NCBI RefSeq assembly: GCF_009296315.1
Contig: NZ_WHLY01000002.1
Coordinates: 620,001 to 684,000, forward strand
DNA from: Salmonirosea aquatica
Lineage (GTDB): Bacteria; Bacteroidota; Bacteroidia; Cytophagales; Spirosomataceae
Reading direction: 5' to 3'
Length of the DNA: 64,000 bases
Within the stretch, counting starts at the first letter, position 1, and every line of letters starts with the position of its first letter. The notes beneath the pieces are model-generated. The model was given only the letters and a program-made list of their open reading frames with translations. It had not been told where the DNA came from and did no database searches. Of the stretch, positions 3,236 through 28,543 are shown one piece after another. The translations under genes and the position numbers were made by a program.

Positions 3236-3251
3236 TTGCAACTTCATGCGA

Positions 3252-3305
3252 TTCCAAAGAAAAGCCTCCCGGAAATATCATATCCCGGGAGGCTTTTCTT
3301 TGGAA
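3252..3305. terminator. Bidirectional terminator with a perfect 21-bp stem
   Basis: Bases 3252-3272 and 3285-3305 are perfect complements around a 12-base AT-rich loop. The arms carry AAAGAAAA/TTTTCTTT next to a GGGAGGC core. The hairpin sits between the convergent DUF4870 and ppk1 genes and can serve both. Confidence 0.85.
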
Positions 3306-3315
3306 TAAAGTCGGC

Positions 3316-28081: not shown

Positions 28082-28139
28082 GGTTTGCGTTGATTAGTAA
28101 CGAAACCGCAAGATAAGGGGAGATTTTTAATAGAAAAGT

Positions 28140-28197
28140 GAAACGGGGTCGCCCGGGCGATGGAAATTAATTTCCATCGCCCGGGCGACCCCGTTTC
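28140..28197. repeat. Perfect 58-bp palindrome with no loop
   Basis: Bases 28140-28168 and 28169-28197 are exact reverse complements with no spacer. Each arm also contains the shorter palindrome TCGCCCGGGCGA. It lies between nifU and the Ddl-like gene, both on the minus strand. A short T-rich stretch follows on the minus strand, so it may act as the nifU terminator, but its length and lack of loop are unusual for one. Confidence 0.9.
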
Positions 28198-28213
28198 CAT
28201 CGGTTATTTTCAC

Positions 28214-28477
28214 CTAGACCAGGCTGGGTACATTGACGGCTTCCACGCGTAGTACATTCGGTACAGCCTTGCGAATGGACTCTTCCAGACCGGCGCGGAA
28301 GGTCATGGCATTCATGGGACAGGTTTGGCACGATCCCATCAATTCTAGACGGACAATGAGGTCGTCTGTTACTTCAGCCAGCTTCACATTACCACCGTCG
28401 GCCTCCAGGTAGGGACGTACGGAGTCAAGCGCGTTTTCGATCAGGCCTTCAATCTTGTTTCTTTCTTCTGTGATCAT
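28214..28477 (-). CDS. NifU C-terminal domain Fe-S scaffold protein
   Basis: An 87-residue stand-alone NifU C-terminal (Nfu-type) domain that carries and delivers Fe-S clusters. The cluster-binding motif is SCQTCPMN with a C-x2-C pair near residue 48. The preceding YLEADGGNVKLAEV segment is the family signature. The start at 28477 (MITEERNKIEG) is preferred over 28504, since family proteins begin there. The mrp gene lies about 66 bp upstream on the same strand; together they are a standard Fe-S maturation pair. The 58-bp palindrome follows the stop. Confidence 0.93.
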   Translation of the reverse strand: MITEERNKIEGLIENALDSVRPYLEADGGNVKLAEVTDDLIVRLELMGSCQTCPMNAMTFRAGLEESIRKAVPNVLRVEAVNVPSLV

Positions 28478-28543
28478 GGGGTATAAATATGCGCTAAAAT
28501 GCACTTTTTTCTCTAAAAATCAAACTTTTGACCGATCGGTTCC

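Follow-up and report, generated by a model that had tools for sequence, protein, structure and literature searches.

A perfect 58-bp palindrome between nifU and ddl in Salmonirosea aquatica as a probable inverted doublet of a dispersed 16-bp hairpin unit

The gap between a nifU-like and a ddl-like gene of Salmonirosea aquatica holds a perfect, loop-free palindrome which, with a probability that we put at about three in four, is an inverted doublet of a dispersed 16-bp unit, the two copies lying tail to tail with their tags inside. The unit opens with the tag CGCA (CGCC in this palindrome) and continues as a 12-nt hairpin of the form CCGG-CGAC-CCGG or CGGG-CGAC-CCCG, and comparison of related sequences shows that such units differ between them as exact 16-bp blocks without target duplication. 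The window analysed is a stretch of 64,000 nt (contig NZ_WHLY01000002.1, positions 620,001 to 684,000), and the features around the palindrome are collected in Table 1.

Table 1. Features of the nifU-ddl gap and its borders. R1 is a covariance model of the 16-bp unit; both arms, which score 34-35 bits, are among its 23 training rows.
Feature	Position	Strand	Basis
D-alanine--D-alanine ligase-like (ddl-like) gene, 578 aa; 58 nt between palindrome and its start codon	26345..28081	-	Pfam PF07478/PF01820
Promoter-like TTATCTTGCG of ddl-like gene	28107..28116	-	resembles TTATATTGCG upstream of ddl in Dyadobacter
Palindrome, probable inverted doublet of 16-bp unit, tag ends inward	28140..28197	.	inverted-repeat search and folding
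16-bp unit copy 1, CGCC tag + CGGG-CGAC-CCCG hairpin, points to ddl-like gene	28144..28159	-	R1 28137-28167(-), 35.4 bits
AT-rich centre ATGGAAATTAATTTCCAT, 18 nt, palindromic in itself, separates the two units	28160..28177	.	sequence
16-bp unit copy 2, copy 1 sequence inverted, points to nifU 3' end	28178..28193	+	R1 28170-28200(+), 34.3 bits
Gene for a protein with NifU-like domain, ORF of 96 aa; 16 nt between its stop codon and palindrome	28214..28504	-	Pfam PF01106, E 2.2e-23

The geometry of the original prediction was borne out, the arms at 28140-28168 and 28169-28197 being 29 nt each, 100% complementary and separated by 0 nt, and the smaller palindrome that it placed in each arm, TCGCCCGGGCGA, is present in both. 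About 2e-13 perfect palindromes of 58 bp would be expected by chance in 64 kb (64,000 x 4^-29), and the runner-up inverted repeat within the window, at 3251-3306, has perfect 22-bp arms around a 12-nt loop. Another perfect inverted repeat, at 1297-1340, with 20-bp arms and a 4-nt loop, has A/T-runs resembling those of a bidirectional terminator. Folded as RNA of the minus strand the palindrome gives -61.9 kcal/mol (z = -11.5) and folded as DNA -40 (z = -10), with 0 of 200 shuffles as stable in either case. A search of the region against Rfam returned 0 families at gathering score and 11 sub-threshold matches, several of them to microRNA families; since all lie below their gathering scores, an Rfam identity for the palindrome was rejected. 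The worry that assembly at a read end might have created the palindrome is unlikely to apply, because it lies inside a 6.5-Mb contig and both arms can be recognised as belonging to a family with copies elsewhere. The accompanying caution about the instability of such structures was fair, REP hairpins being substrates of SbcCD in E. coli, where homodimers may be cleared, according to the accessible portion of PMC3733652.

Within each arm the 16-bp unit reads CGCCCGGGCGACCCCG, its 12-bp core being the small palindrome, and the limits of the two window copies are taken from filled and empty sites elsewhere. TTTC and GAAA lie outside the units, and the 26 bases left after removal of both units are still palindromic. 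In the genome of S. aquatica the core occurs three times, once in each arm and once at a place that looks coding and does not continue into the 16-mer, and the window 16-mer was seen in the two arms only. Both window units carry CGCC (against CGCA), a version absent from every other copy read, and this shared change suggests that one arm was probably copied from the other. The simplest route to two such probable copies would be inversion and duplication of a unit together with its flank: a single unit with AT-rich flank would have entered the gap between nifU and the ddl promoter, after which the inverted duplication, through a hairpin-templated strand switch or through one arm correcting the other, would have produced the perfect palindrome.

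A genome search for further copies of the arm, which had been proposed as a check, proved productive and uncovered the dispersed family. Relaxed searches of the S. aquatica genome gave related sites, many of them intergenic, and a pattern search gave 24 forward and 27 reverse sites against 10 and 9 for its control. Alignment of 23 sites, hand-picked and including both window arms, yielded the consensus ATCGCAC[C/G]GGCGACCC[C/G]GTC with its hairpin and served to build R1; the family form, CGCA-CCGG-CGAC-CCGG, is a 4-nt tag followed by a 4-4-4 hairpin. All 12 unit sequences written out, which were hand-chosen, include the consensus and in two cases had a flanking base added to bring 15 nt to 16, fit a tag of 4, a stem of 4, a loop of 4 and a stem of 4. 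Four further copies (L192, L193, L221, L228) have longer loops or a second hairpin and are possibly two units in tandem. Among the 23 rows, pair 3 of the hairpin is C-G in 9, G-C in 9, G-U in 1 and unpaired in 4. Two-sided change affects 1 of 5 stem pairs, no more than in shuffles (1 vs 1.2), and the covariation score and the number of cells changed on both sides are above all 500 shuffles; covariation alone would not prove a nucleic-acid hairpin, as a dyad binding site would covary too.

Applied to the S. aquatica genome, R1, trained on 23 sites, gives 46 matches at E<=10, with 150 of 2282 first-look candidates scored. At E<=0.05 it matches 12 of 59 genomes, S. aquatica included, and 36 of 41 in the genus of G031, probably Dyadobacter. 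The exact 16-mer CGCACSGGCGACCCSG (S at two positions) occurs at 10 places in the S. aquatica genome, its reversed control at 0. Across the phylum, 7 of 395 genomes have any match to it, and the reversed control hits two other genomes, once each. Three of the seven (S. aquatica, G003 and G030) belong to the taxonomic family, from which four genomes were sampled; the remaining four have one match each, three of these in long open frames, which is about chance level. The tags among the copies matched are CGCA, CGTA, CGCC, CGCT, CGCG and CAC[AG], counts of which depend on the search pattern, flank positions alone being informative.

Precise insertion, a trait of mobile repeats like the small dispersed repeats (SDRs) of cyanobacteria, was shown for the 16-bp unit by filled and empty sites. 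In a transposase gene, probably IS5-like by its signature, two identical copies in the S. aquatica genome and one in G006 have CGCACGGGCGACCCCG preceded by TGGACAAAT or TGGACTAAT and followed by TTCTTC or TTTTTT, and the site is empty in nine loci representing seven distinct copies in four other genomes (G003, G007, G014, G028), where one frame reads W-T-[NG]-F-F-R-R. The insert is exactly 16 nt long, shifts the frame, has no target duplication and lies at the same position in S. aquatica and in G006, which belongs to another genus. These codons were read in 13 of 30 IS loci, the protein pattern having missed 17, and a distant homologue (L355) is not comparable there. In a tentative tree of six transposase rows the S. 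aquatica copy stands with the empty copies and that of G006 far out on a long branch; independent insertions, precise loss and conversion between copies are all possible histories of the site. The two S. aquatica copies (L332 and L349) are identical and carry the same frameshifting insert, and for that reason the IS probably moved after the unit had been inserted. GC-rich inserts of 14-16 nt occur in the gene in L332 and L349 of S. aquatica, L337 of G006, L356/L333 of G014 and L357 of G007. An IS copy of G014 has two more 16-nt inserts, GGCACAGGCCGCCCTG and GGCTCCGGCCACCCGG; five other GC-rich inserts, of which a G007 copy has four and G014 has one, measure 14-15 nt in the alignment, so that the unit is not always 16 nt long, and the G007 insert CCGGTGCGCCGGTGCG measures 15 nt when anchored on codons.

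A second filled site is that of a decayed RAYT gene in the S. aquatica genome, where the same 16-mer as in the transposase gene stands on the other strand between codons W and V; the site is empty in three homologues (L234, L244, L251), its pattern having been found in 3 of 31 RAYT loci. This RAYT-like gene (G000:C2, about 5032930-5033600, read in L014 and L053) scores 56.7 bits against NF047646, with a cut-off of 80, and has the 16-mer early in the gene, a further frame change and the HuH motif KHVN. The third site is the nifU-ddl gap itself, in which Larkinella knui has CGGGGCCGCCCGTGCG and L. terrae and L. rosea are empty, an exact 16-bp difference. The Larkinella gaps (L151, L153, L155) contain another palindromic repeat around CACGGACTAAAGTCCGTG, and the L. 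knui 16-mer sits inside it. Comparison of the locus in relatives, also advised at the outset, thus turned up this insert, and on the question of an orthologous palindrome upstream of ddl it gave only three weak R1 matches over 80 loci, one of them the L. knui insert (L151, 17.7 bits); orthology was rejected. Inspection by eye covered the 230 bases upstream of ddl in part of these 80 loci. For the window copy no empty site was found among the 59 genomes, a set that includes no genome of the same genus.

Target duplication was rejected, the filled and empty sites showing none and insertion into AT-rich repeat tracts fitting the flanks better. The flanks do resemble direct repeats of 5-6 bp; in the S. 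aquatica genome the two flanks agree more than shuffled pairs do over 5 or 6 nt but not over 7, and in relatives they show no excess at 5, 6 or 7 nt, a test made without L187, L221, L228, L232 and L233 (model length not 31) and L220. Over 97 distinct contexts the flanks are mostly TCAT^TCA, largely because many units are embedded in tracts of AT-rich octamers, for example (TCATTCAC)n.

Single units, tandem arrays and inverted doublets are all found. The array periods of 24, 32 and 40 correspond to 16 plus one, two and three octamers, respectively; in the array L295 this rule fails for two spacings of three, 84 and 44. The tandem arrays L293, L295 and L299 have spacings of 24, 32 and 40-84 bp. 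Inverted pairs within 400 bp have their tags inside in 7 of 7 cases in the loci examined, beside 12 direct pairs, several of these loci having been chosen for containing pairs regardless of orientation. The S. aquatica genome has a second compact inverted doublet (G000:C2:1284804-1284876; L048, L182), with arms around CGTGCGATGAGTGAA and TTCACTCATCGCACG.

A start codon lies within 60 nt in sense direction in 50 of 96 copies read and in antisense in 11 of 96, counting ATGs that open an ORF of 110 aa or more and lie between -8 and 60 nt from the model end. By set, copies with a sense and with an antisense ATG number 23 and 5 among the 43 of S. aquatica, 14 and 4 among the 24 of relatives, and 13 and 2 among the 29 of Dyadobacter. 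The S. aquatica set comprises 43 of the 46 matches (two IS copies and 1284852 left out), that of relatives 24 of 27 loci (the truncated L196, L204 and L215 left out) and that of Dyadobacter 29 loci from a longer list. Some rows are not independent: L167 and L184 precede a single gene, four Dyadobacter rows share one gene, L174 and L176 are the window arms, and L213 and L220 belong to one array. Selection, as opposed to a preference at insertion, could account for the sense bias.

According to the accessible text of PMC3733652, REPs are small dispersed tagged hairpins that occur as singletons, inverted dimers, tandem groups and copies inside genes, dimers with spacers of 1-2 bp are described, and the location is mostly at gene 3' ends, between convergent or unidirectional genes. 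The 16-bp unit resembles REP, BIME and REPIN sequences in being a short dispersed hairpin with many single and dimeric copies (46 matches; 7 inverted and 12 direct pairs). The palindrome might be a conventional REP doublet mobilised by a RAYT, that is, a REPIN, as its hairpin with a 5' tetranucleotide, its inverted doublets and the copy inside a RAYT gene would suggest, and matches to the RAYT model occur in 51 of 59 genomes, S. aquatica included, 22 of them above the cut-off. This reading is nonetheless unlikely. The tag is of the CGCA type, neither GTAG/GTGG nor CGTC, the tags by which the GTAG and CGTC superfamilies of REPs are known in the accessible parts of PMC3733652 and PMC6006769, and the unit is only 16 bp in all, with a core stem of 4 bp. 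Copies favour the 5' ends of genes in sense direction, about half of them standing just before sense starts, judged from the start-codon counts, instead of at 3' ends. RAYT genes flanked by the repeat were not found either: a unit within two mismatches lies near RAYT/Y1 in 0 of 43 loci scanned (40 distinct places), and R1 over 33 RAYT loci finds a strong unit in one, the decayed gene with the unit inside. Since 51 of 59 genomes have a RAYT match, such matches are uninformative on the presence of units; they do not split the genomes with units from those without, and the RAYT link was rejected. REP insertions within tnpAREP genes of subclass 2.4 keep the frame in the accessible part of PMC6006769, unlike the insert in the RAYT gene here, which does not. 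The tag, size, frequent 5' location and missing RAYT link set the unit apart from REPs and SDRs.

Insertion of the IS200/IS605 type occurs without target duplication. The SDRs that Elhai et al. reported from cyanobacteria in 2008 are said to be 21-27 bp long. The 16-bp unit differs from them in its phylum and length, and is likened to them by description, not by sequence. The likeness lies in a tiny, dispersed repeat with precise insertion, as the accessible parts of PMC3116915, PMC2884548 and PMC4390886 describe for SDRs, including the insertion of SDR5 at a fixed place within HIP1 (PMC4390886) and potentially mobile repeats about 20 bp long (PMC2884548). With the ends of IS200/IS605 and TnpAREP (HuH Y1) elements the unit shares a tetranucleotide 5' of the hairpin foot, so described in the accessible part of PMC6006769, and insertion without target duplication; it is unlike IS200/IS605 in that no cognate enzyme was found for it and that its TCAT^TCA flank largely reflects repeat tracts. 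It is also unlike a MITE, with no target duplication at the IS, RAYT and L151 sites and 16 bp without separate terminal repeats. A putative enzyme would probably insert the unit as folded single-stranded DNA, in the manner of REPs and of IS200/IS605-type ends. A description of the unit was not found in the literature searched, PMC2817692 included, which comprised few subscription papers, so that this is no proof of absence.

The Bacteroidota -7 consensus is TAnnTTTG, and the promoter-like sequence before the ddl-like gene is given in Table 1. A script places nifU directly upstream of ddl in 58 of 80 relatives, and 40 of these 58 have a terminator-like hairpin in the gap by a rule of our own, which the window palindrome also passes. 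A simple scan lists the palindrome on the minus strand, among terminator-like sites that number 7 across the region against 6.4 in shuffles. The palindrome could on these grounds be an intrinsic terminator of nifU, long and symmetric by chance or selection, its similarity to the repeats being incidental, and the GC-rich stem downstream of nifU in a slot so often used is indeed terminator-like. We regard this as decidedly improbable, however: both arms score 34-35 bits under the model of the dispersed unit, of whose 23 training rows they form part, the perfect 29-bp arms are built of insertion units, and about half of the copies precede a sense start codon, where a terminator would be expected to silence the gene. 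Of the terminator idea in the original prediction the slot stands, but the nearest relatives (L084, L085) have no such hairpin in the gap by the same rule, and the tail ACTTTTCT, with 5 T in 8, makes a weak T-run and a poor U-tract. With the palindrome as a probable doublet of insertion units, transcription of nifU would give a stable 27-bp RNA hairpin in a slot where many relatives have a terminator-like one, and this hairpin may fix the 3' end of the nifU mRNA or protect it, with the ddl promoter insulated; such a role as nifU 3' end or ddl insulator is plausible.

The genes after units, as read by eye, look unrelated (elongation factor P, Ffh, FabD, DapB, NuoL, transporters). A regulon was rejected, the pairs among downstream proteins being versions of one gene from sister species or genera, apart from weak similarities, at about 24% identity, within the ABC transporters and within the efflux transporters; two Dyadobacter downstream proteins pair at 56%, one member being antisense. 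The leader of a conserved efflux permease gene has a unit in 3 of 30 Dyadobacter loci read and, by coordinates, also in G076 and G080. These 30 leaders (L302-L331) range from 6 nt to more than 100 nt and contain octamer tracts and different GC-rich units, and in five, read by eye, just 6 nt separate stop from start codon. That the ACCGG-N4-CCGGT dyad is an operator for a dimeric regulator, and the palindrome a double operator for ddl and nifU, is very improbable: dyad symmetry survives letter changes, about half of the copies lie near gene starts and a NuoL-like gene, so named by eye, has the unit both in S. aquatica and in G016 (L183, L206; 96% protein identity), but NuoL apart the genes in S. 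aquatica and its relatives do not pair as orthologues, the efflux leader seldom has the unit, and units stand in arrays and inside transposase genes. The suggestion of a dyad for a dimeric protein accordingly fits poorly with units before unrelated genes, in tandem arrays and inside coding genes, and of the three ideas first offered that of a replication or recombination element came closest, in so far as the arms each carry one copy of a dispersed insertion unit of 16 bp.

Beyond the doublet, the units may tentatively be taken, as a possibility that we hold short of expectation, for a class of Spirosomataceae mobile DNA of about 16 bp, with a fixed 4+4+4+4 layout of tag, stem, loop and stem, varying letters, recognition by shape, no target duplication and a putative single-strand activity, which would have hit the same transposase codon junction in separate lineages and would grow into perfect palindromes. 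Letter variants of the layout are CGCA-CCGG-CGAC-CCGG, CGCA-CGGG-CGGC-CCCG, GGCT-CCGG-CCAC-CCGG and GGCA-CAGG-CCGC-CCTG. The family of units is a more interesting object than the palindrome, whose loop-free perfection would be explained as the mirror duplication of an insertion unit. Repeats so small are usually seen as static motifs only, and the exact 16-bp filled and empty sites offer a testable minimal substrate for single-strand insertion. Bacteroidota are generally without Shine-Dalgarno sequences, according to the accessible parts of PMC3155529 and PMC6847099, and the frequent location of the units in leaders before start codons raises the question of whether they alter mRNA stability or translation.
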